Shown in pieces: positions 1-12,295 of a DNA stretch of 64,000 nt. The stretch spans positions 744,001 through 808,000 of the forward strand of contig NZ_LR215979.1 of NCBI RefSeq assembly GCF_900683735.1. The letters are read 5' to 3'. The notes under the pieces are model-generated. The model was not told the DNA's origin. It searched no databases and saw only the letters and a program-made list of their open reading frames with translations. The DNA is from Fusobacterium ulcerans ATCC 49185 (GTDB lineage Bacteria > Fusobacteriota > Fusobacteriia > Fusobacteriales > Fusobacteriaceae). The first letter of the stretch is position 1. Every line of letters begins with the position of its first letter. The translations under genes were made by a program, and so were the position numbers.

Positions 1-2
1 AG

Positions 3-101
3 TTTACTTATGCATTAAGAGATAAAGCTGGAGATATTCCATACACACTGGAAATAAAAGAATATGTTTTGCCAGTTCAAAGAAGTGATAACAATGTATA
101 A
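3..101 (+). CDS. Phage tail/baseplate protein, C-terminal fragment (XkdP/LysM-type candidate)
   Basis: An open frame enters from the left edge and ends at the TAA at 99-101, giving 32 residues of a protein cut by the window. The end contains a GDIPYTLEIKEY stretch, which resembles the strand-rich segment of XkdP-like tail proteins that sit just before XkdQ in PBSX-type phages. The stop overlaps the ATG of the next gene by 8 bases, which supports it being a real upstream gene of the same operon. The family name rests mainly on position and is tentative. Confidence 0.5.
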   Translation, partial: FTYALRDKAGDIPYTLEIKEYVLPVQRSDNNV

Positions 102-1071
102 AATTATTGTAAAAGATAAGGATATAACAGCTTACACAGCAAATCTAAATTGGCGTGATAGTGTTGATACATTAGGAGTAGAGTTAAATTTTGATGTGGC
201 AGTAAATAGACATGATGAAAACTTTTCTTTTCTCTGGGATATCACACTTGGGGATAATGTACAGCTCATAAATAGTAAAGGTGAAAGTTTGCTTCAAGCT
301 ATTATTGTATCAGAAAATTTAAATGAAAAAACAACAAACTTTGTGGCATATGATATGGCTTGGTATTTAAATAAATCTACAGTTATTAGACAATTTAAAA
401 AAATGATAGGAAATGAATGTGTAAAATCTTTATGTGAAGAAATTGGAATTAAAGTTGAAGTTTCTGGGTTAGATACTAAGATAGATAAAATATATAAAGA
501 TAAAGCTGTTTCAGAAGTGATTTATGACATTATTAATCAATGCTCACAACACAATTCCAAGAAATTTTTTATTGAAATGGATAAAGGGATATTGAAAGTA
601 GGGTCTTTTAAAAAAATAAAGGTAACAGGGCAGTATGAGCTACATAAAAATCACTTTGTTAATGTGGCTGATTTTGTAGGTAATGTTTCTTTAAATAAAT
701 CTATTATTGACATGAAAAACTCTGTCTTGGTAATAACAGCAGATAAAGAAGCTGTGAGAACAGTAGGAAAGGAACAGGATCAAGAAAGTATTAAAAAGTA
801 TGGAATGTTGCAAGAGGTTGTAATACTTGATGAAAAGGAATATAAAAAAGCAAAACTTGTGGCAAAGAATGAGTTAAAAAAATTAAATAGAATTACTGAA
901 AATTTTTCTATCACTATCTTAGGGGATGATAAAGTGAAAAGTGGCAGAGTAATTGATTTAGAAATACCTTTTTTCAATTTAAAAGGGGAATATTTAATAA
1001 AGGAAAGCAATCATATAGTACAAAATGGAATTCACAAATCAGAACTAAAGTTGGAGGTGTATCAGGAATGA
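94..1071 (+). CDS. Phage baseplate hub protein, XkdQ / late control gene D family
   Basis: A 325-residue protein whose N-terminus (MYKIIVKDKDIT, then NLNWRDSVDTLG) is typical of XkdQ-like hub proteins, which form the central baseplate hub below the tail tube of contractile phages. The frame extends upstream to an ATG at 64, but the ATG at 94 gives the family-like N-terminus, so I chose 94. The gene overlaps the upstream stop by 8 bases and the next start by 4 (ATGA), consistent with translational coupling in the late operon. Family assignment is by similarity recalled from the PBSX set and by gene order. Confidence 0.75.
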   Translation: MYKIIVKDKDITAYTANLNWRDSVDTLGVELNFDVAVNRHDENFSFLWDITLGDNVQLINSKGESLLQAIIVSENLNEKTTNFVAYDMAWYLNKSTVIRQFKKMIGNECVKSLCEEIGIKVEVSGLDTKIDKIYKDKAVSEVIYDIINQCSQHNSKKFFIEMDKGILKVGSFKKIKVTGQYELHKNHFVNVADFVGNVSLNKSIIDMKNSVLVITADKEAVRTVGKEQDQESIKKYGMLQEVVILDEKEYKKAKLVAKNELKKLNRITENFSITILGDDKVKSGRVIDLEIPFFNLKGEYLIKESNHIVQNGIHKSELKLEVYQE

Positions 1072-1604
1072 GTGATAATCAAAAAGCTTGGGATATAGCT
1101 ATGGCAGAGAAATTTAAAGAAAGAGATAACCCAAAGCCTATTGGAGCAGTCTTAGGAAAAATTTTAAGGCCACTTCCTGATATATCAATTGAATTATTAG
1201 GCGGTTATGGGATTTTAGATGCAGATAAGATTTATCTTTCTAATGCTATTACAAATAGATTAGCTATAGAATGCACAATAAAGGACTTTGAAAGTATGGG
1301 TAATAGTATTGAAAACATGAAAAGTTCCTTTATGGAGACTGGAACATGGACCCCATTCAAGCCTATTACTTTACCTTTACCATCAAATGATAAGACAGAA
1401 AGTGTTGATATAAAAATCCCAAAACAAACAAATGAAAAAGAAAATAAAACTAAAGGAAAATTTATACTGCAGACTGTATTTAATTTAATTCCTGGAATGT
1501 ATGTTTTAGTAATACCTAACTATGAGGAAGATAAATTTTTTGTAGTTGATGTATTTAATTATGCTCCGGAGGTGAGCCTTGAATGGGAATATTACCAGAA
1601 ATAA
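1068..1604 (+). CDS. Phage baseplate protein, XkdR-like (DUF2577)
   Basis: A 178-residue protein with the segment KILRPLPDISIELLGGYGIL followed by a LSNAI stretch, matching the pattern of DUF2577/XkdR proteins that lie between XkdQ and XkdS. It begins at the ATGA overlap with the hub gene and has a GGAGGTG ribosome site in front. Its last 22 bases overlap the next gene. The function is structural, in baseplate assembly; the precise role of the family is not well established. It is somewhat longer than the usual XkdR, with a low-complexity Lys/Asn/Glu linker near residues 120-135. Confidence 0.65.
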   Translation: MSDNQKAWDIAMAEKFKERDNPKPIGAVLGKILRPLPDISIELLGGYGILDADKIYLSNAITNRLAIECTIKDFESMGNSIENMKSSFMETGTWTPFKPITLPLPSNDKTESVDIKIPKQTNEKENKTKGKFILQTVFNLIPGMYVLVIPNYEEDKFFVVDVFNYAPEVSLEWEYYQK

Positions 1605-2035
1605 ATTTTATTGATTATTCAAAACAAGTAGCAGAGATTCAAAAAGAAACAAATGGAAAAACCTTTCTAATCGATTTCAAAAAAGGGAAGATGTTAAGAA
1701 AAAATGGAAAACTAATTAAAACAGATGATGAAAGAGCTGTAAGGATGTGGCTAGAAAAAGTACTTTTGACAGAGAAATATAAATGGAATATTTACAAAGG
1801 TAATGGAATTAATCAATATGGAATGACTTATAAAGCCAATTTACAAGGACAAAGATTTCCAACTCCTGTTTTATATAGTGAATTCATAAGAGAGCTGAAA
1901 GAAACAATATTAAAAAATAAACAAATTATTGAAATAAAAAACATAGACATACAACTAATAAAACATACATTGGAAACTAAATTTACAGTAGTGTTAAAGG
2001 ACTTCCAAGAATTTGAGTGGGAGGGTTATTTATGA
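1583..2035 (+). CDS. Phage baseplate wedge protein, XkdS-like (DUF2634, gp25-like)
   Basis: A 150-residue protein with the DUF2634 pattern: a short strand with DFKKGK, then TDDERAVRMWLEKVLLTEKY and a YGMTY segment. XkdS proteins are the gp25-like wedge component linking hub and BaseplateJ protein. The start at 1583 has a good GGAGGTGA site inside the upstream gene, and the gene ends in an ATGA overlap with the BaseplateJ gene. Position between XkdR and XkdT is exactly that of PBSX-like phages. Confidence 0.75.
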   Translation: MGILPEINFIDYSKQVAEIQKETNGKTFLIDFKKGKMLRKNGKLIKTDDERAVRMWLEKVLLTEKYKWNIYKGNGINQYGMTYKANLQGQRFPTPVLYSEFIRELKETILKNKQIIEIKNIDIQLIKHTLETKFTVVLKDFQEFEWEGYL

Positions 2036-3090
2036 TAATAAAAAAAGAACAAAAAGAGATATTAGATGGGATGCTCAGGAATGTAAATGAGGAATATGAT
2101 AGAACAGAAGGGGGACTGTTTTATGATAATTTAGCACCAGTAAGCATAGAATTAGAAGAACTCTATCAAAAATTAGATTATATATTTCTCAATTCTTTTG
2201 CAGAAACTGCTGAAGGGGAATATTTGGATAATATAGCTAAAGAGGTAGGAGTTTTCAGAAGACAACCTACAAAGAGTAAAGGTTTTGTAACAATAAAAGG
2301 AACAATAGGAACTGTGATTACAATAGGAACAAAAGTTGCTTCAGATACATATATTTACTTAACTACAGAAGAAAAAGAAATTCCAGAACAGGGAGAGATA
2401 TTAGTACCTATTGAAAGTGAAAATGCTGGATCAGAATATAACATACCAGCAGAAACTATAGTAAATTTTCCAGTTACAATTCCAGGGTTACAAAGAGTTA
2501 CAAATAAGCTAGCAACTACAGATGGGTATGATGGAGAGAAAGACAATGAACTGCGAGAAAGGTATTATTTTAAAGTCAGGGAGCCAGTTACATCAGGAAA
2601 TATTTACCATTATAAAAAATGGTGCTTAGAAGTAGAAGGAGTTGGAGGAGTTAAGGTTTTTCCACTTTGGGCAGGACCAGGAACAGTGAAAGTGGTTATA
2701 GTAAATGTAGATATCCAAGCAGCAGATGAGGAGTTGCAGCAAAGAGTAAGAGACTATTTAGAGGAAGTACGACCAATTGGGGCAACTGTAACAGTTAAAA
2801 GTGCTATAAATAAAGGAATAGCAATTACAGGAATTGTGAAAATTTCTAAAAATGTTGATTTTGAAGAAGTAAAAAAAGATTTTGAGGAAGAGGTTAGAGA
2901 ATACTTTAAAAAAATTGGGTTTAATCAAAATTATGTTAGTTATGCACAGGTAGGAAATACACTTTTAAATGTACAGGGAGTAGTAGATTATAGTGATTTG
3001 CAGTTAAATGATGGGGTATTAAATATCGATTTACAAGAAGAAGAGATACCAGAGCTTGCATCAATAACTTTACAGAAGGAAGTGATATAG
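2032..3090 (+). CDS. Phage BaseplateJ family protein (XkdT-like)
   Basis: A 352-residue protein with the BaseplateJ layout: an N-terminal helical part (YDRTEGGLFYDNLAP, then EGEYLDNIAKEVGVFR), a central strand-rich domain (GTKVASDTYIYLTTEE; SAGSEYNIPA-like SENAGSEYNIPAET), then the REPVTSGN and VKVFPLW segments. It forms the baseplate wedge periphery of the contractile tail. A GTG at 2017 is possible, but GGGAGGG at 2019-2025 is correctly spaced for the ATG at 2032, which also gives the usual ATGA overlap with the preceding gene. Confidence 0.88.
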   Translation: MIIKKEQKEILDGMLRNVNEEYDRTEGGLFYDNLAPVSIELEELYQKLDYIFLNSFAETAEGEYLDNIAKEVGVFRRQPTKSKGFVTIKGTIGTVITIGTKVASDTYIYLTTEEKEIPEQGEILVPIESENAGSEYNIPAETIVNFPVTIPGLQRVTNKLATTDGYDGEKDNELRERYYFKVREPVTSGNIYHYKKWCLEVEGVGGVKVFPLWAGPGTVKVVIVNVDIQAADEELQQRVRDYLEEVRPIGATVTVKSAINKGIAITGIVKISKNVDFEEVKKDFEEEVREYFKKIGFNQNYVSYAQVGNTLLNVQGVVDYSDLQLNDGVLNIDLQEEEIPELASITLQKEVI

Positions 3091-3642
3091 GTGGAGGCCA
3101 AAAGACTTATGCAGCATATGCCAAAATATTATAGAACTATAGCAGAAATAGTAGTATTGCAAAAAACTATTCAAAGTGAACTAGAAGTTATTGATTTTAC
3201 AAGTGAAGATGTACTAAAACAATTCTTTATTTATACTGCTACTTGGTCATTACCAATTTGGGAAAGGATTTTCGGATTACCTGTTGGGGATGAAACTACG
3301 AATATACAAGAACGAAGAGAAAATTTAATTTCTAAACTTAGAAGTTATGGAACTACAACAAAAGAAATGATTGTAAGAGTTGGAAATGCTTTTACAAATG
3401 GGGAAGTTCAAGTTGTGGAACATAATGAAAAATATTTATTTGAAATTATTTTTACAGGTATAATAGGGATTCCTCCTAATATGGATGATTTCAAAGAAAC
3501 AATAGAGATTATCAAGCCAGCACATCTTACATACACTGTTGTATTTAGGTATAGAACTTGGGGAGAATTATCTCCTTATAGATGGGGAGAATTAGAACCA
3601 TTTACTTGGGATGAGCTTTATCAAAGAGCAGAAATAGCATAA
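3091..3642 (+). CDS. Phage tail protein, XkdU/YmfQ-like (DUF2313)
   Basis: A 183-residue protein with the LMQHMPKYYRTIAEI start and a SLPIWERIFGLP segment, followed by NIQERRENLISKLRSYGTTTKEM, all features of YmfQ/XkdU baseplate proteins that join tail fibres to the wedge. The C-terminus is a Trp-rich repeat (TWGELSPYRWGELEPFTWDEL), probably the fibre-contact end. Two starts are possible: GTG at 3091 (GAAGG site 7 bases upstream) and ATG at 3109 (GGAGG site 11 bases upstream). I keep the GTG. Confidence 0.8.
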   Translation: MEAKRLMQHMPKYYRTIAEIVVLQKTIQSELEVIDFTSEDVLKQFFIYTATWSLPIWERIFGLPVGDETTNIQERRENLISKLRSYGTTTKEMIVRVGNAFTNGEVQVVEHNEKYLFEIIFTGIIGIPPNMDDFKETIEIIKPAHLTYTVVFRYRTWGELSPYRWGELEPFTWDELYQRAEIA

Positions 3643-3652
3643 AGGGGGGACA

Positions 3653-4597
3653 ATGATAACATCAAAAAATTTAAAAATGCAATTGCCAGAACCAAATGAT
3701 TATGTAAAAGTTAAAGAGCATATAACAGATAACTTGCTCTTAGTAGATGATGAAATATTTAAAACTGCATCCAGTACACAGTTTGGAAGAATTAAAGTAG
3801 GAACAAATTTAAAAATAGATGAAAATGGATTTTTACATGGAAATCCTGCTGTAGACATAAGTGGAAAAATAGATAAGTATCAAATGAGATATGATATAAG
3901 AGACTATGATGAACTAACAGAAGATGGATTTTATATACTAACAGGAAGTGTAAGCAGCTCTCCAGCAGCAAATGCACCATATGGAGATTCGGCATTAGTG
4001 AAGGTGTGGACTCATTCAAATTATGTATATCAAAGTGCAGTATCTTATTATAGTGTTGGAGAACAATATACAAGATGTTTTCAAAAAGGAGTAAAAAATA
4101 TTAAATGGGAAAGAATAATTAATACTAAAAATTATTCTTTTATGTGCCCTTATAGTATTGGGGATATTATGTTTACTACAAGTAGTCAAAATCCTGCAGT
4201 AAAATGGATAGGGACAACTTGGGAAAAAATAGAAGGAAGGTTTTTATTAGGATCTAGTAGTTCTTATGTTGTAGGGACTACTGCTGGAAGCACAACATCC
4301 GTTCTTACTGTAGCTAACCTTCCATCACATACACATAGTGCGACACAATCGGCTCATGCTCATACACAACCAGCTCATAGCCATGTTGTAACAAGTTATG
4401 AGGGAGGAAATAGAGCTGGAGTTTCTAACTATAATGCTGGATATAATGCAATAGGAACACAAGCAACTGGAGGAGCAGGAGGAGATAATACAGGAAGTGC
4501 TCAACCTGCAATAACAGTAGGATATACAGGTTCAGGAACAGCTTTTAATAATATGCCACCATATCTAGTAGTTAATATTTGGAGAAGAACAAGTTAA
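3653..4597 (+). CDS. Phage tail fibre protein with pyocin-knob-like and His-rich collar domains
   Basis: A 314-residue receptor-binding fibre. Residues ~1-70 look like the baseplate-anchoring part. Residues ~75-160 resemble the pyocin-knob domain (YDIRDYDELTEDGFYIL, then VKNIKWERI). Residues ~165-314 are a phage-collar/short-fibre tip: GDIMFTTSSQNPAVKWIGTTW, GRFLLGS, LPSHTHS, AHAHTQPAHSH and a final NNMPPYLVVNIWRRTS. The HxH motifs are the type that coordinate metal along the trimer axis in short tail fibres. A GGGGG site stands 5 bases before the ATG. It determines host range, so its tip is expected to vary among related prophages. Confidence 0.85.
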   Translation: MITSKNLKMQLPEPNDYVKVKEHITDNLLLVDDEIFKTASSTQFGRIKVGTNLKIDENGFLHGNPAVDISGKIDKYQMRYDIRDYDELTEDGFYILTGSVSSSPAANAPYGDSALVKVWTHSNYVYQSAVSYYSVGEQYTRCFQKGVKNIKWERIINTKNYSFMCPYSIGDIMFTTSSQNPAVKWIGTTWEKIEGRFLLGSSSSYVVGTTAGSTTSVLTVANLPSHTHSATQSAHAHTQPAHSHVVTSYEGGNRAGVSNYNAGYNAIGTQATGGAGGDNTGSAQPAITVGYTGSGTAFNNMPPYLVVNIWRRTS

Positions 4598-4616
4598 GAT
4601 TAGAGGAGTGATTGAA

Positions 4617-5240
4617 GTGAATAAAAAATATATTTATTTAAGTAAAGAAGAAGCAAAAAAAGGAATAGCACTGGTTTATGAAGTATCAGATAAGGCTTTA
4701 AGTGAAAATGAAACGAAAATTAAATATAGGGATAGATGTTGCTTGTACATTGGGGAAGATTTACCACACTATATAACTTATGTAGAAGAAGGTAACACAG
4801 TAAGAGAGGCAACAGAAGAAGAAAAACTAGAAAGAGGAGATAGAGATTTATATGTAGGAGAAGTATATATAAATGGAAGAATAGAACAGATAGAAATACC
4901 AGAAGGAATGATAAAGCCAATATGGGATAATGAAAAAGGGGAATGGGAAGAAATAGCAACTTTAAAAGAGATAGAAAAATATTTTATGGATAAATTGCAA
5001 GAATATATGGACAATAAGGCAAAAACATATGGATTTGATAGTGTATTTAATGCTGCAAGTTATATAGATTCTAAAGTAGAAAGATTTAAAAATGACAGTA
5101 GAACATTGCTAGATTGGAGAGATAGCACATGGGATAAAGCATATACAATACTTGAAGATGTATTAACAGAGAAAAGAGGAATACCTACACTAGAAGAATT
5201 ATTAAAAGAACTGCCACAGATAGCAGATGGAAGGAGATAA
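4617..5240 (+). CDS. Probable tail-fibre assembly/chaperone-like phage protein (DUF4376-like C-terminus)
   Basis: A 207-residue acidic, highly charged protein directly after the fibre gene, where phages usually place a fibre assembly protein. The C-terminal ~75 residues (YGFDSVFNAASYIDS, then LLDWRDSTWDKAYTIL) have the pattern seen at the end of many fibre-assembly and DUF4376-type proteins. The N-terminal part I do not recognise. The AGAGGAG site at 4602-4608 sits 8 bases before the GTG at 4617 and directly abuts the alternative GTG at 4608, so 4617 is the likelier start. Function is inferred from position and C-terminal pattern. Confidence 0.55.
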   Translation: MNKKYIYLSKEEAKKGIALVYEVSDKALSENETKIKYRDRCCLYIGEDLPHYITYVEEGNTVREATEEEKLERGDRDLYVGEVYINGRIEQIEIPEGMIKPIWDNEKGEWEEIATLKEIEKYFMDKLQEYMDNKAKTYGFDSVFNAASYIDSKVERFKNDSRTLLDWRDSTWDKAYTILEDVLTEKRGIPTLEELLKELPQIADGRR

Positions 5241-5241
5241 A

Positions 5242-5679
5242 ATGAAAATGAGTGAAGGAGGAATTAAATTTTTAATCCAGGAAGAAGGAGAAAGATTAAA
5301 AGCATATAAGTGTGCAGCAGGAGTATGGACAATAGGGGTAGGACACACAGGAGCAGATGTAAAAGAAGGAATGGTAATAACAAAAGAAAAATCAAGAGAG
5401 CTTTTAAAAGCTGATTTAAGCCGTTTTGAAAAAGCAGTCAACACTTATATCAAAGTTCCACTTGAACAACACCAATTTGACGCTTTAATAAGTCTGGCTT
5501 TTAATATAGGAGTTGGAAACTTTTCTAAAAGTACTCTAGTAAAAAAGATAAATGCAAATGCTACTATTGAGGAAATAGAATTTCAATTTAAGCAGTGGAG
5601 GCTAGCAGGAGGAAAACCTATATTACTACCTAGAAGAAAGAGAGAGGCTAGACTATACAAAGGAGGAAGATATGAATAA
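5242..5679 (+). CDS. Phage endolysin, GH24 lysozyme (Glu-Cys-Thr type)
   Basis: A 145-residue muramidase that cuts the peptidoglycan glycan chain during host lysis. The active site follows the E-8-D/C-5-T spacing of family 24: Glu15, Cys24 and Thr30, with the usual GVWTIGVGHT stretch around the threonine. Cys replaces the Asp of T4 lysozyme, as in the phage 21 and P1 group. A second core motif (DALISLAFNIGVGNF) and a C-terminal LLPRRKREARLY helix are present. AAGGAGAT 5 bases before 5242 fixes the start, not the ATG at 5227. There is no signal or anchor segment, so export must depend on the holins encoded next. Confidence 0.92.
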   Translation: MKMSEGGIKFLIQEEGERLKAYKCAAGVWTIGVGHTGADVKEGMVITKEKSRELLKADLSRFEKAVNTYIKVPLEQHQFDALISLAFNIGVGNFSKSTLVKKINANATIEEIEFQFKQWRLAGGKPILLPRRKREARLYKGGRYE

Positions 5680-6160
5680 AGAAACATTATTTTTAATAAT
5701 AACAATTATCCTAGTTATGATGGGGACATATTACTTATACAAGTATAAAAAAGAAACTTTATGGGTAATAGCCTGTTATGTGGTAACAAGAGCAGAGGAA
5801 GGATTTGCATCAGGTCAGGGGAAACAAAAACTTGAATATGCTATTATAGAATTTAAAAAGAGAATACCAGTATATATATCCTGGATTATATCTGAAAAAT
5901 TTATCATTTCTTTAATAGAAAAAGTTCTGAAAGCACTACAAGAGGAGTTTAAAAAGTCAAAGGATAAACAACTCACAATAGTAAATGAAATCCTTAAAAC
6001 AGCAACCACAGGAGCTACAAAAGATATATTAAAAGTAGCAAGAGAAATGCAAAAAGATATTAATAGTAAAGGATATGTAGAAGGATATATTGAAGGAAGA
6101 ACAGATTTTAGAGGAAACTCTAATTTAGTTGGAGGATTAAAAGCAGGAATCAAATTGTAA
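5672..6160 (+). CDS. Phage holin-like protein, LL-H family candidate
   Basis: A 162-residue protein with one N-terminal membrane segment (residues ~5-22) followed by a soluble, charged domain. The segment RAEEGFASGQGKQKLEYAI resembles the conserved region of LL-H type holins (paired helix after a single membrane span). It overlaps the endolysin by 8 bases, as expected for a lysis cassette. The Gly-rich tail (YVEGYIEGRTDFRGNSN) is unusual for the family. It could instead be a tail or membrane accessory protein; the assignment rests on topology, one motif and position. Confidence 0.6.
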   Translation: MNKETLFLIITIILVMMGTYYLYKYKKETLWVIACYVVTRAEEGFASGQGKQKLEYAIIEFKKRIPVYISWIISEKFIISLIEKVLKALQEEFKKSKDKQLTIVNEILKTATTGATKDILKVAREMQKDINSKGYVEGYIEGRTDFRGNSNLVGGLKAGIKL

Positions 6161-6173
6161 AGGAGAGTTGAGA

Positions 6174-6566
6174 ATGATAAATTTAATAAAAACATGGGGG
6201 TTATATCTAGGTAGTGGTTGTTTAAGTTTGACTATCTACTTAATGGGAGGTTATGACATATTGATAAAAACTCTTTTAGTAATGATGATTATAGATTTTA
6301 TAACTGGAATTATGAAGGGGTATAAAAATAAAAATATAAACTCCAATGTATCATATAGAGGCATAAAGAAAAAGGTAACAGTATTACTTATTGTGGTAGG
6401 TGCTTCTCAAATGGATTTGATACTTCATGATGTAGGTATTAGGTCGTTGGTATTGATGTTCTATGTAGCAACTGAATTTTTATCAATTCTTGAGAATGCA
6501 GCAATATTAGGAATACCCATTCCTACAAAATTAAAAGTAGCATTAGAGCAATATAGAAATAGATGA
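6174..6566 (+). CDS. Phage holin, toxin-secretion/lysis family (TcdE-like, Holin_4)
   Basis: A 130-residue protein with three to four hydrophobic segments and the family core: a first span, then LLVMMIIDFITGIMKGYKN, a basic SYRGIKKKV turn, and a last helix with ATEFLSILENAAILGIPIP. Members make membrane lesions that release endolysin, and some relatives export clostridial toxins. The AGGAGAG site at 6161-6167 is 6 bases before the ATG at 6174, so the upstream TTG at 6168 is rejected. It is the last gene of the late operon, followed by a terminator. Confidence 0.9.
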   Translation: MINLIKTWGLYLGSGCLSLTIYLMGGYDILIKTLLVMMIIDFITGIMKGYKNKNINSNVSYRGIKKKVTVLLIVVGASQMDLILHDVGIRSLVLMFYVATEFLSILENAAILGIPIPTKLKVALEQYRNR

Positions 6567-6597
6567 AGAAATAAAAAGTAAATATAGATAATAAAAG

Positions 6598-6618
6598 TGG
6601 GAAAAGTCCCATTTTTTT
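6598..6618 (+). terminator. Intrinsic terminator of the prophage late operon
   Basis: TGGGA and TCCCA pair across an AAAG loop, followed by seven T residues. It lies 32 bases after the holin stop and closes the tail-lysis operon before the kinase gene. Confidence 0.85.
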
Positions 6619-6644
6619 ATTTACTTGACTTTAAAAGCTAAATA

Positions 6645-6650
6645 TATAAT
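6645..6650 (+). promoter_or_regulatory. -10 element of the prophage kinase gene
   Basis: A TATAAT lies 36 bases before the kinase start. The best -35-like hexamers are TTGACT at 6625-6630 (only 14 bases away) and TTTACT at 6620-6625 (19 bases), so the -35 is uncertain. It lies just after the late-operon terminator, so the kinase can be expressed from the silent prophage. Confidence 0.45.
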
Positions 6651-6685
6651 AATTAAATAAAGAACAAATATGGGAGAGATAAAAT

Positions 6686-8191
6686 ATGAAACAAATATTA
6701 AGGAATTATTTAAAAGAAAAAAATAAGATTGAAACTTTATTCAGTGAAATTTCTGATTTAAGAATAATAGGAGAGGGAGCTAATGGGTTAGTATATTCTG
6801 GAAAAATTAATAACCAAGTTCCTGTTGCTATAAAGTTTTTAGTAACAAATGATAAAAAAAAATTGGATCGATTTAAAAGTGAATATATTAATATCAGTAT
6901 GGTAAAAGATGAATTAATAAATATAGTAAATAATCTTCACTATGAAACAATTGATATAGAAGAGGGATCAAAAAAATATACTTATAATTATATCTTGATG
7001 AAAAGGTATTGTAAATCATTAAAAATGAAAAGGAAAGAACTTTCAAAAATAGAGTTTAAAGATTTGAAAAAACTATTTTCTGATTTATCCAAATCACTAT
7101 CTTCTTTAGAGGAATTTGAAATAATTCATAGAGATTTAAAACCTGAAAATATTCTTATAGATGAAAATGAGAATTATAAAATAGCAGATTTTGGAATTGC
7201 ACATTTTGCTGATGAAAATACTTTTCCTATGGTTGGGTTAACAAAAGATGGAGAAAGATTAGCAAATTTTGAATTTTATGCTCCTGAACAAGTAAAACCG
7301 CCTTTTCATACCTCTTTAGCAACTGATATATATTCTTTTGGGTTAATATTATATTGGTTTGTTTTTGGAGAAATAACTAAAGGAACTGGAAGAAAAAGAT
7401 TAACAGAAGTATTTCCAGAAGGGGAAGCAGAATATTTTGATATAATTATTGATAAATGTTTAAGAGATGATCCAAAAGAGAGATATCAAACAATAGAAGA
7501 GTTGAATGATCATCTGGATGAAATTAGATCTTTAGATAGAGAAAAAGATCCTTTTGAAGAAATGACGAAATTTAATATGGTTTTGAGATCCGTTGTTCCC
7601 GAATTCTACATAGATGGACCATATTGTACAGAATCAGAAAAGGAAATTGAAACTATTATAGAAAAACTTGAAGAAATAAATAATAAAACTTTATATTTTA
7701 ATACAGGAATTTTAAATAATAGAATTGAATGGCTGAAAAAAATAGACACAGGAAATTTTTTATTAAATATGGGGGAAATAAAAATAATTAAAATATGGGG
7801 GAAACTAGGTGACAGTTTATATGATGATATCTTGATTATAGAAACAGACAAGATAGATCCATATATAATTGATGGAGAGCCACATACTCATGTTGCTAAA
7901 ATTAATGATGATGAGATAGTTCCTTTGCACAAAATAGAGGGAGGATATACAAGATATAATGGAAGTGTTGTTGATAATAGAGATTTAAAAATAGAAGAAA
8001 GAATTACTACCAATATGGCAAATCATAAGTACTATTTTATTGGGACTTTTTTCAATTCAATTACTATGCCTGAGAATGATAAGTATTTGGAAACTATTCA
8101 GAATCATAATCAATTAACTCCTGAAATAATTAAAGATTTTTTTATGAAGATAAGAAGAAATAAACGTTTACAAGTGAGTGAAAAATTATAA
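6686..8191 (+). CDS. Hanks-type Ser/Thr protein kinase with unknown C-terminal domain (prophage accessory gene)
   Basis: A 501-residue protein. Residues ~25-275 are a complete eukaryotic-like kinase: glycine loop GEGANG (29-34), VAIK lysine Lys50, HRD at 148-150 with DLKPEN, DFG at 168-170, APE at 199-201, and DIYSFG. All catalytic residues are present, so it should be active. Residues ~285-501 match no domain I can name and contain no membrane span, so this is not a PASTA-type cell-wall kinase. It sits between the lysis operon and the prophage end, the usual place for lysogen-expressed cargo. A role in superinfection exclusion or defence is plausible but only inferred. It has its own ribosome site (GGGAGAG) and -10 box. 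Confidence 0.88.
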   Translation: MKQILRNYLKEKNKIETLFSEISDLRIIGEGANGLVYSGKINNQVPVAIKFLVTNDKKKLDRFKSEYINISMVKDELINIVNNLHYETIDIEEGSKKYTYNYILMKRYCKSLKMKRKELSKIEFKDLKKLFSDLSKSLSSLEEFEIIHRDLKPENILIDENENYKIADFGIAHFADENTFPMVGLTKDGERLANFEFYAPEQVKPPFHTSLATDIYSFGLILYWFVFGEITKGTGRKRLTEVFPEGEAEYFDIIIDKCLRDDPKERYQTIEELNDHLDEIRSLDREKDPFEEMTKFNMVLRSVVPEFYIDGPYCTESEKEIETIIEKLEEINNKTLYFNTGILNNRIEWLKKIDTGNFLLNMGEIKIIKIWGKLGDSLYDDILIIETDKIDPYIIDGEPHTHVAKINDDEIVPLHKIEGGYTRYNGSVVDNRDLKIEERITTNMANHKYYFIGTFFNSITMPENDKYLETIQNHNQLTPEIIKDFFMKIRRNKRLQVSEKL

Positions 8192-8214
8192 GAAAATAAA
8201 CTATTGATTTAAAT

Positions 8215-8250
8215 TTAATTGAATGATATAAGTTAATTGAATGATATAAG
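8215..8250 (+). repeat. Two exact, abutting 18-bp direct repeats, with a third degenerate copy at 8318-8335
   Basis: The unit TTAATTGAATGATATAAG occurs at 8215-8232 and again at 8233-8250 with no gap. A third copy at 8318-8335 matches at 15 of 18 positions. They lie just after the kinase stop. They could be protein-binding iterons (for example integrase arm sites) or residue of a duplication. Confidence 0.85.
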
Positions 8251-8260
8251 CATGATAAAT

Positions 8261-8296
8261 AAAAAACCTCTAAGGACTAATCTAAGAGGTTTTTTT
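8261..8296. terminator. Bidirectional terminator after the kinase gene
   Basis: The arms at 8261-8271 and 8285-8295 (A6-CCTCT and AGAGG-T6) form a perfect 11-bp stem. The outer A and T runs give a T tract on each strand. A second weaker hairpin follows at 8336-8362 (9 pairs, one G-T). Confidence 0.75.
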
Positions 8297-8427
8297 ATTT
8301 TTAATTATTAGAAATTACCAATTGAATAATATAAGAGACTTCATAATATTTTCATGAGGTCTTTTATATTCTAACAGTTTTATAATCAAATTAATATTTT
8401 ATATTTTTTATCAATATACTGAAAAAA

Positions 8428-8489
8428 TGGTACACTAATATTCTAAAGAAAAAATATATGTACCAGGTGGTTGGTCACGCGTTGGTCAC
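8428..8489. repeat. Candidate prophage attachment-arm region: inverted repeat plus TTGGTCAC direct repeats
   Basis: TGGTACA at 8428-8434 is inverted at 8459-8465 (TGTACCA). Directly after it, TTGGTCAC occurs at 8471-8478 and 8482-8489, an 11-bp period, about one helical turn. The block is non-coding and lies at the expected end of the prophage. Helically phased direct repeats are typical of recombinase arm sites, but without the other prophage end this is only a candidate. Confidence 0.4.
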
Positions 8490-8530
8490 AAATAACAAAA
8501 ATGAAATAATATATTTCTCTCAAACATACA

Positions 8531-8562
8531 ACAAAAGCTCCCTTGAGAGTGAGAGCTTTTGT
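8531..8562. other. Strong hairpin in the gene-free stretch 8192-8740
   Basis: ACAAAAGCTC (8531-8540) and GAGCTTTTGT (8553-8562) form a perfect 10-bp stem with a 12-base loop. No T tract follows on either strand, so it is not a normal terminator. The rest of the 549-base gap holds the repeats, the terminator and the promoter described separately; I see no gene or tRNA in it. Confidence 0.6.
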
Positions 8563-8676
8563 TCGTAGAAATTAAAATGTAATTTAAGGAAATGTCCTAT
8601 GACAATATTATTATAACATATATGATTATTCTGTCAACAAATATTTTGAAAAACAAATAAAAAAATAAATTTCTAG

Positions 8677-9941: not shown

Positions 9942-10189
9942 ATTTTAAATTAAAAATCATAAATCATATGAATGAATATATTTTATTTTATTTATATAGG
10001 TTTTTCACATAAATAATAGTATCTTATTTATATATATTCTGTAAATTTTTTTTAGAGTATATATAAGAATGATATTGGGAATATAGAAAACAGATATTTG
10101 TTTTTTATTTTATTGTGGAGTATATAAAGAAGTATAAAATATTTTATTGAAAATACAAAAATATTTTAAAACGGGAGGAAGGAAAGATT

Positions 10190-10786
10190 ATGATTAATGC
10201 AATTTGGTGTGGAATGATAATTATTGGAGTGGTTGTATCTATATTTACTGGAAAGATTCAGGCAGTGACAGACTCAGCAATATCGTCAGCAGGAACAGCA
10301 GTGGAGATATCAATAGGACTGGTAGGTGTAATGGCATTGTGGCTTGGACTTATGAAGATAGCTGAAGAAGCAGGATTAGTAAAGGCTATGGGAAAAGCAA
10401 TGAAGCCTCTTATGATAAGATTGTTTCCAGAAGTACCAGCAGATCATCCAGCTATGGGAAGTATGGTAGCAAATATGGCAGCGAACTTCTTTGGATTAGG
10501 AAATGCAGCAACACCATTAGGAATAAAAGCCATGCAGGAATTACAGGAACTGAATACAAATAAGGATGAGGCATCAAATGCAATGGTAATGTTTTTAGCA
10601 ATAAACACTTCATCTGTAACTCTTATATCTTCAAGTGTAATAGCATACAGAACAGCAGCAGGTTCAGCAAATGCAGCAGAGGTTATAGCACCAACAATAG
10701 TTGCAACAATAGCATCAACAGCAGTAGGAATAATAGCTTGCAAAATTCTGCAAAAGTTACCATCATTTAAAAGAGAAGAAATTTAA
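10190..10786 (+). CDS. spmA: SpmA-like membrane protein (nucleoside-recognition/Gate domain)
   Basis: A 198-residue integral membrane protein closely resembling Bacillus SpmA over its full length: a WLGLMKIAE stretch, PADHPAMG, ANFFGLGNAATPLGIKAM, and FLAINTSSVTLI. In Bacillus, SpmA and SpmB act with a peptidoglycan carboxypeptidase in spore maturation. The domain is related to the core of nucleoside transporters, so a small-molecule transport role is likely. It is the first gene after the lysine riboswitch, in an organism not expected to sporulate, so it may move lysine, DAP or a muropeptide (inference). A GGGAGGAAGG site precedes the ATG, and the partner spmB follows after 30 bases. Confidence 0.85.
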   Translation: MINAIWCGMIIIGVVVSIFTGKIQAVTDSAISSAGTAVEISIGLVGVMALWLGLMKIAEEAGLVKAMGKAMKPLMIRLFPEVPADHPAMGSMVANMAANFFGLGNAATPLGIKAMQELQELNTNKDEASNAMVMFLAINTSSVTLISSSVIAYRTAAGSANAAEVIAPTIVATIASTAVGIIACKILQKLPSFKREEI

Positions 10787-10816
10787 GAGATAAAACAGAA
10801 GAGGGAGGAATAGAAA

Positions 10817-11356
10817 ATGTTTGTAATGATAATGAATCAAATATCGCTTTATGCAATACCAATGATAATATTTATAATAGTAGGATATGCATTCTTTGTA
10901 AAGAAGGTAAGAGTATATGAAGTATTTTGTGAGGGAGCAAAGGAAGGATTTACAACAGCAATAAGAATAATACCATTTCTAGTGGCAATGCTGGTAGCAA
11001 TAGGAATATTCAGAAGTTCAGGATGTATAGATATAATGATGAAAGTATTGGATCCAATATTTTCAATGATAGGAATGCCAGGAGAAGTATTACCAATGGC
11101 AATAATGAGACCATTGTCAGGAGGAGGAGCAACAGGAATAATGAATGATCTTATGCTGACATATGGACCAGATTCATTAATAGGAAGAATAGCCTCAACA
11201 ATGATGGGATCAACAGAAACAACATTTTATGTACTGGCAGTATATTTTGGAGCAGTAAGTATAAGAAAGACAAGACATGCAGTAGCAGCAGGACTTTTAG
11301 CAGATTTAGCAGGACTGCTAACAGCAGTATGGATCTGCAATTTAATGTTTAGATAA
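10817..11356 (+). CDS. spmB: SpmB-like membrane protein (nucleoside-recognition/Gate domain)
   Basis: A 179-residue partner of SpmA, essentially the Bacillus SpmB length (178). Shared features are VYEVFCEGAKEG, a IRPLSGG-like RPLSGGGATGIMNDL stretch, YGPDSLIGRIAS, GSTETTFYVLAVYFGAV, and LLADLAG near the end. It has four to five hydrophobic segments. SpmA and SpmB probably form one heteromeric membrane unit. A GAGGGAGGAA site precedes the start. Just downstream is an LD-carboxypeptidase, echoing the link of Bacillus spmAB with the peptidoglycan carboxypeptidase gene dacB. Substrate unknown. Confidence 0.85.
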   Translation: MFVMIMNQISLYAIPMIIFIIVGYAFFVKKVRVYEVFCEGAKEGFTTAIRIIPFLVAMLVAIGIFRSSGCIDIMMKVLDPIFSMIGMPGEVLPMAIMRPLSGGGATGIMNDLMLTYGPDSLIGRIASTMMGSTETTFYVLAVYFGAVSIRKTRHAVAAGLLADLAGLLTAVWICNLMFR

Positions 11357-11374
11357 AAATTTTGAGGTGGTAGT

Positions 11375-12295
11375 GTGTTAGGAAATAAACTTAAAAAAGG
11401 TGATACCTTGGGTATTATTGCACCAGCAAGCTTTACTTCTATTGATAAAGTAGAAAGTGCAAAAAATAATCTTGAAAAAATGGGGTTTAAAGTTATTCTT
11501 GGAGAAAGTACTAAAAGCAGATGGTATTCATATGCTGGTCCAGAAGAGCTAAGAGTAAAGGATATAAATGATTTTTTTGCTGATTCTAATATAGATGGAA
11601 TAATATGTATGAGAGGAGGATATGGATGCAACAGACTTGTTGAAATGGTAGATTATTCAGTTATTAAAAAAAATCCTAAAGTTTTTATTGGATATAGTGA
11701 TATAACTACTCTGCATATGTCTATTTTTCAAAAGACAGGGCTTGTAACATTCCATGGGCCTATGGCTGTAAGTAATTTCTCTGGAGAATATAATCAAGAT
11801 ACTTACAGAAGTTTTGAAGAAGTACTTATGAATGATAATGATGAAATAGTATTAAAAAATTTCACTAAAGAATTAGGAGTGCTTTCTGAAGGAAGGGCAG
11901 AAGGAGGAATAGTAGGAGGAAACCTAGCTACAATGATAGCCAGTCTTGGAACTGAATATGATGTAGATTATAATGGGAAAATCCTTTTCTTAGAAGAAAT
12001 TGGTGAAAAGACATATAAAATTGACAGAATGCTGAACCAGTTGAAAAAATTTAAGGTTTTTGAAAAAATAAATGGAATTATTCTGGGAGATTTCAGAAAC
12101 TGCCCAACAGATTCTGAGAATGATATGTGTTTAATGGATGTATTCAAAGATTATCTTTCAGATTTAAAAATGCCAGTGGTATATAATTTTGAATCTGGTC
12201 ACAGTGAACCTATGATTACATTACCTATGGGAGCAAAGGTAAGAATAGATACAGCAGTTAAAGAGATAAAAATCTTAGAAAAGGTTGTAAGATAA
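11375..12295 (+). CDS. ldcA: LD-carboxypeptidase, peptidase family S66 (LdcA-like)
   Basis: A 306-residue cytoplasmic serine peptidase. Family S66 cuts the bond between the L-centre of DAP (or lysine) and the terminal D-Ala of murein tetrapeptides, a step in wall recycling. The features are MRGGYGCNRLVE, the nucleophile Ser108 in GYSDITTLH followed by FHGPM, the Glu-bearing LFLEEIGEKTYKIDRML, and the His in ESGHSEP. Ser, Glu and His are therefore all present. The start is a GTG (no in-frame ATG nearby) 4 bases after GAGGTGG. It lies between the spmAB pair and the exporter pair. Some relatives are microcin-immunity or cyanophycinase-like proteins, but the motif set favours LdcA. Confidence 0.88.
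   Translation: MLGNKLKKGDTLGIIAPASFTSIDKVESAKNNLEKMGFKVILGESTKSRWYSYAGPEELRVKDINDFFADSNIDGIICMRGGYGCNRLVEMVDYSVIKKNPKVFIGYSDITTLHMSIFQKTGLVTFHGPMAVSNFSGEYNQDTYRSFEEVLMNDNDEIVLKNFTKELGVLSEGRAEGGIVGGNLATMIASLGTEYDVDYNGKILFLEEIGEKTYKIDRMLNQLKKFKVFEKINGIILGDFRNCPTDSENDMCLMDVFKDYLSDLKMPVVYNFESGHSEPMITLPMGAKVRIDTAVKEIKILEKVVR

Follow-up and report, generated by a model that had tools for sequence, protein, structure and literature searches.

A prophage cargo kinase of Fusobacterium ulcerans with a distinctive activation segment and a family-specific C-terminal domain: a candidate anti-phage factor

The abortive-infection kinases of bacteria are known from few cases, and how such kinases sense a phage is largely open. 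PD-T4-6 is an anti-phage Ser/Thr kinase of Escherichia coli (Vassallo et al. 2022, PMC9519451), while the Stk of phage 933W, a single prophage kinase, is described in PMC8008677 (with reference to Friedman 2011) as being made in the lysogen, activated by another phage and responsible for the abortive infection of HK97. Stk2, a Staphylococcus kinase, is described in PMC12926258 as being triggered by phage PacK. The KKP system, in which prophage kinases are tied to both lysogeny and defense, combines a PP2C phosphatase with two kinases, whose C-termini are of cold-shock and FHA type (PMC11341870). To these may be added a one-gene family, seen here in a Fusobacterium prophage and in P2 prophages of E. 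coli, whose conserved core, single diagnostic motif and dedicated C-terminal domain (CTD) could make it a compact test case.

The gene in question occupies positions 6686–8191 (forward strand) of the window, i.e., the 64,000-nucleotide stretch of the Fusobacterium ulcerans ATCC 49185 genome that was analyzed. It is a genuine ORF of 501 aa with an ATG start and an upstream GGAGAG, and its soluble product comprises a Hanks-type kinase domain (residues ~21–285; 6746–7540) and a CTD of ~215 residues (286–501; 7541–8188). Pfam Pkinase (PF00069) matches residues 24–275 above its cut-off (E 2.3e-29), and the kinase part of an AF2 model built from 7 sequences (pLDDT 73) superposes on solved kinases over 230–250 residues with Z about 25 and rmsd 2.4–3; by modeled fold and by motifs the protein is a Hanks-type kinase. 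The catalytic set is complete (G-loop, K50, E66, H148-R149-D150, K152, N155, D168, E201, D214 and R266) and is kept in all eight diverged relatives (nine members compared), so that the kinase is apparently active. The sequence-only reading of this DNA had already stated that all catalytic residues are present, and the alignment with the relatives confirms its choice of D150 (7133–7135, within the HRD motif at 7127–7135) as the catalytic Asp.

What that reading missed is a departure from the standard pattern in the activation segment. The Thr of the GTxxYxAPE motif belongs to the P+1 loop of Hanks-type Ser/Thr kinases and, as established for PKA, makes contact with the catalytic Asp and Lys. 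This Thr is replaced in the window kinase by Asn194 (ERLANFEFYAPE; RLANFEFYAPE), within the sequence ERLANF (residues 190–195; 7253–7270), and the replacement is conserved in the relatives. An Asn in the P+1 loop would likely alter the choice of substrate or the mode of activation.

Set beside the described systems, the cargo kinase may be viewed as a variant of the mobile-element anti-phage kinases, presumably with a comparable function. The best PADLOC matches of its kinase domain are the defense kinases mad6 (7.4e-39) and PD-T4-6 (many models, best 6e-34), matches to which nothing but the promiscuous kinase domain contributes. It shares with PD-T4-6 the form of a soluble single-gene Hanks kinase; however, the PADLOC models for the latter cover essentially the kinase domain (one runs to residue 341), the window CTD alone matches none of them, and the RLAN signature sets the window family apart among the kinases compared. 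Membership in PD-T4-6 over the full length was accordingly rejected. Assignment to MAD6 of the methylation-associated defense system also fails, with an NCBIfam score of 84 bits against an equivalog cut-off of 460 and with the MADS partner genes absent here; ten mad6-profile matches examined in Fusobacteriota have neither the RLAN signature nor the CTD. The PASTA kinases (PknB/Stk1) can be set aside as well (96 bits against an NCBIfam cut-off of 450): as the sequence-only reading held, a Pfam search finds no PASTA repeats in the 501-aa protein and there is no transmembrane segment, the top 19-residue Kyte-Doolittle mean being 1.3.

The likeness to the 933W Stk is one of functional precedent (PMC8008677) and not of established homology, as the 933W record is absent among the 20 phage records matched by the window protein at 1e-5, which is a comparison of records only. 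Stk2, which offers a parallel in kinase-driven abortive infection, matches the window kinase domain at 1.1e-16, but the match is limited to that domain and the flanking regions differ. The phage Ser/Thr kinases of phrog_2361 match the full kinase domain up to residue 332 (6.4e-37), with the remainder of the CTD outside the match. Membership in KKP was rejected, there being no other ORF beside the gene in its slot, no second kinase in the prophage and no adjacent PP2C phosphatase. Elsewhere in the genome there is a second, short (248 aa) kinase-like ORF (G000:C1:1370398-1370955) that has neither the RLAN motif nor the CTD; similar ORFs occur in other genomes of the genus.

The activation-segment signature [DE]R[LM]AN[FY], which takes the place of the GTxxY of other kinases immediately ahead of the APE motif, co-occurs with the C-terminal profile in nine of nine family members and in none of the 83 other kinases among those compared. 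All nine have Asn at the P+1 position, and the window kinase conforms to the longer pattern [DE]R[LM]AN[FY]x[FY]. A maximum-likelihood tree built from 45 kinase domains separates the nine from all others by a branch supported at 99/97. On these sequence criteria we define a small, apparently previously undescribed family of mobile-element kinases with an RLAN activation segment and a dedicated CTD (RLAN-CTD). Its members were gathered along several routes: Moraxella, Leclercia and Pantoea yielded full-length relatives in plasmid searches; the alignment of these plasmid relatives, used to scan IMG/VR, added L013/L014; and when IMG/VR was scanned for the motif itself, written as a degenerate DNA pattern, six contigs came back, every one of which encodes a full-length member of about 510–540 residues. 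Exact-peptide scans with the window protein gave no near relatives in IMG/VR and a single distant kinase in the GTDB contigs. Among 5,426 E. coli genomes, three hold a copy identical to the L093 gene, the protein record of which is WP_001276027.1, whereas DNA relatives of the Leclercia copy are absent from the E. coli genomes.

Searches of Pfam, NCBIfam and PADLOC with the CTD found no match, and PHROGs gave a weak hit only; tblastn with the CTD alone against phages and plasmids was empty. To this extent the earlier statement that it matches nothing stands; yet at least eight diverged relatives, of the same length and architecture and carried by phages, a phage-plasmid and plasmids, share it, and the domain, while new in the sense of being uncharacterized, is thus common to a mobile-element kinase family and not unique to this gene. 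Compared singly with the CTD of L088, the window CTD gives a BLAST E of 6e-10 and a HMMER score of 34 bits (shuffle maximum 4.6), whereas against a profile built from the other eight CTDs it reaches only 10 bits (shuffle maximum 8). The link of the window CTD to the family therefore derives mainly from L088 and from the shared architecture, length and kinase clade, and the window protein appears to carry a homologous CTD whose similarity is clear to L088 and weak to the eight-member profile. Judged on these sequences, the CTD is a fast-diverging domain. Its model (pLDDT 73, pTM 0.72, 7 sequences) is mixed alpha/beta; Foldseek with this model gave no match below E 0.1 in the PDB or 0.02 in BFVD, and the best VIA-align Z was 4.8, for the heme-binding protein ChuX, while PilZ and GAF domains scored near 3. 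Since the best structural scores sit below the stated noise level of the tool, we assign no fold, and the domain may yet have a known one. Structure prediction and profile searches of residues 285–501, which the sequence-only reading had proposed as a check, thus yielded relatives and not a confident known fold.

That reading had also taken the gene to be late-end prophage cargo, and here the borders bear it out. The prophage spans G000:C1:714917-752583 (about 37.7 kb) between 71-bp att repeats of 97% identity, attL at G000:C1:714917-714988 and attR at window positions 8513–8583, such that the right-hand part of the element (tail, baseplate, lysis genes, cargo and attR) lies at 1–8583 of the window. 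From attL the gene order is integrase, regulators, replication, terminase, portal, capsid, tail and lysis genes, with the kinase as the last gene, between the holin and attR and 0.3 kb inside the latter. An uninterrupted site with both host flanks together in one 4-kb locus (an empty attB) is found in another genome, G025. Fusobacterium phage phiHugo has a large terminase subunit 89.6% identical to the one encoded here, and the window can on this basis be assigned to a lineage of Fusobacterium phages. At 8530–8563 the att core itself has the form of a strong terminator-like hairpin; an Asp/Glu racemase-like gene lies downstream of it, and the phage appears to integrate into a terminator.

The lysis module (5227–6566, forward strand) consists of a lysozyme-type endolysin (5227–5679; Pfam Phage_lysozyme, 1.6e-43), a phage protein of 162 aa that weakly hits a holin-like PHROG (5672–6160) and a holin (6174–6566; Phage_holin_4_1, 4.7e-34). 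A predicted intrinsic terminator closes it at 6593–6616 (fold z -3.3), a promoter-like site (TTGACT-17-AATAAT, 10/12; 6625–6653) follows as the predicted promoter of the cargo gene itself, and a hairpin with a T-run downstream of the kinase (8257–8300; -12.8 kcal/mol, z -3.1) is its probable terminator, all on the forward strand. Taken together, these signals make the kinase look like a separate moron transcription unit. Terminator-like sites exceed the shuffled expectation (4 against 0.7), whereas promoter-like sites are near chance in this AT-rich DNA (29 seen, 24 expected), and hence the predicted promoter is weak evidence alone.

The same position is filled differently in related phages. 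In a sister prophage of genome G027, which uses the same att site, the stretch from holin to attR holds two genes: one, on the opposite strand, for a membrane protein of 229 aa and one for a PD-T4-7 homologue of 292 aa (E 4.8e-23). PD-T4-7 is an abortive-infection gene found by experiment (PMC9519451). In phiHugo the integrase comes immediately after the holin. The holin-attR interval thus serves as an optional site for cargo; among its other occupants, the only one whose function can be recognized is a homologue of a defense gene. The two occupants, the PD-T4-7 homologue and the unrelated membrane protein, lie at 3026–4723 of L078 (G027:C1:2595001-2603000).

The relatives of the kinase occur in settings of a similar kind. 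Three of them (L091, L092 and L093) adjoin the P2 gpA gene: in the P2-like prophages L091 and L093 the kinase has gpA (Phage_GPA, E 7e-130) on one side and portal on the other, and in L092, where gpA is next to the kinase, the contig stops before any portal gene. Two annotated E. coli prophages with a kinase identical to that of L093 likewise have it between the replication endonuclease and portal. The gpA-portal interval of P2 is a known hotspot of anti-phage defense (PMC9122126, PMC9519451). Elsewhere, the Moraxella plasmid copy adjoins qatD, the Pantoea copy has a restriction endonuclease nearby, the Leclercia phage-plasmid carries terminase, amidase and plasmid replication genes, and in L013 the portal and protease genes flank the kinase, which sits, moron-like, on the other strand; L088 shows no clear phage or defense neighbors. 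As IMG/VR holds viral contigs, the phage setting of the relatives drawn from it is partly built in, but their position in the P2 hotspot is not so explained. In L013 a gene for a DUF6216 membrane protein (4168–5061; 1e-33) adjoins the kinase as a possible moron partner. In the P2-like E. coli prophages a PtuB-like protein (5e-5, in L093) and two uncharacterized genes, one of them apparently membrane-anchored, flank the kinase ahead of portal; these neighbors (L093:7078-7902 and 10043-11589; neighboring genes also in L174) might be further defense candidates.

In light of these patterns, we put at roughly 60% the probability that the gene is a moron-type cargo kinase acting as an anti-phage factor, by which superinfection by other phages is aborted and in which the CTD is the sensor or targeting part. 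A defense role had been proposed from the sequence alone; to it can now be added the P2 gpA-portal hotspot, the qatD neighbor in Moraxella and the PD-T4-7 homologue in the sister slot, while the role itself is still one that we infer. Under such a mechanism, the gene, read from the prophage as its own unit between the lysis genes and attR, would supply a cytosolic Ser/Thr-type kinase that is silent or low in the lysogen; a product of a superinfecting phage would meet the CTD and switch the kinase on, and the activated enzyme would abort the infection by phosphorylating proteins of the host or the phage. A bolder version, which we hold only tentatively and think rather doubtful, would make the RLAN-CTD family a distinct anti-phage kinase system spread across phyla (Fusobacteriota, Gammaproteobacteria and others), with a CTD of new fold recognizing a conserved phage product, an Asn P+1 loop of unusual specificity, and detection and killing united in one protein.

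Alternatively, the kinase might chiefly regulate lysogeny or host physiology, phosphorylating host regulators such that the prophage is stabilized or the host altered (lysogenic conversion), with defense secondary. There is precedent in KKP, which controls Pf lysogeny via phosphorylation of MvaU and also defends (PMC11341870), and a single gene with its own predicted promoter would suit a conversion gene; however, KKP requires two kinases and a phosphatase whereas a single kinase stands here with no partner in the slot, and both the sister-slot PD-T4-7 homologue and the P2-hotspot relatives point to defense, which makes this alternative unlikely. Improbable to a greater degree is that the gene is a mere passenger, acquired and intact, but unselected in this lineage and with no current function. 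Such a status would fit its presence in only one of 98 Fusobacteriota genomes (the other 97 hold neither a copy of the gene nor a sister prophage carrying it) and the interruption of one of the three E. coli copies of L093 type by an IS3 element; it fits poorly with a full-length ORF that keeps all catalytic motifs and has its own predicted transcription signals, and with the strong purifying selection on the P2-borne relatives (dN/dS 0.06–0.08 in the kinase, 0.09–0.21 in the CTD). T7 gp0.7 is a phage kinase that modifies the host in lytic growth, acting early. That the window kinase is a late gene modifying host or virion in the lytic program, as its place after the holin on the same strand might suggest, is very unlikely, and its candidacy as a lysis gene was dropped, given the intervening predicted terminator and promoter-like site, a slot that is otherwise filled or empty in related phages, and relatives that lie away from lysis genes and on the strand opposite to structural genes.

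If the anti-phage reading is right, Fusobacterium would gain a candidate anti-phage kinase, and the small prophage cargo slot would be worth mining. The same prophage carries, beside its integrase (G000:C1:716833-719389; L075:12833-15389), a two-gene unit with an LmuB-like ATPase that matches the PADLOC candidate PDC-M46A/B (5.9e-16 and 1.6e-81) and is probably a second defense cargo. At G000:C1:719696-721343 (L075:15696-17343), a sce7726-family protein (PADLOC cll, 1.6e-33) faces a Beta_protein/PD-Lambda-2_C homologue (3.3e-40), forming another defense-like pair.
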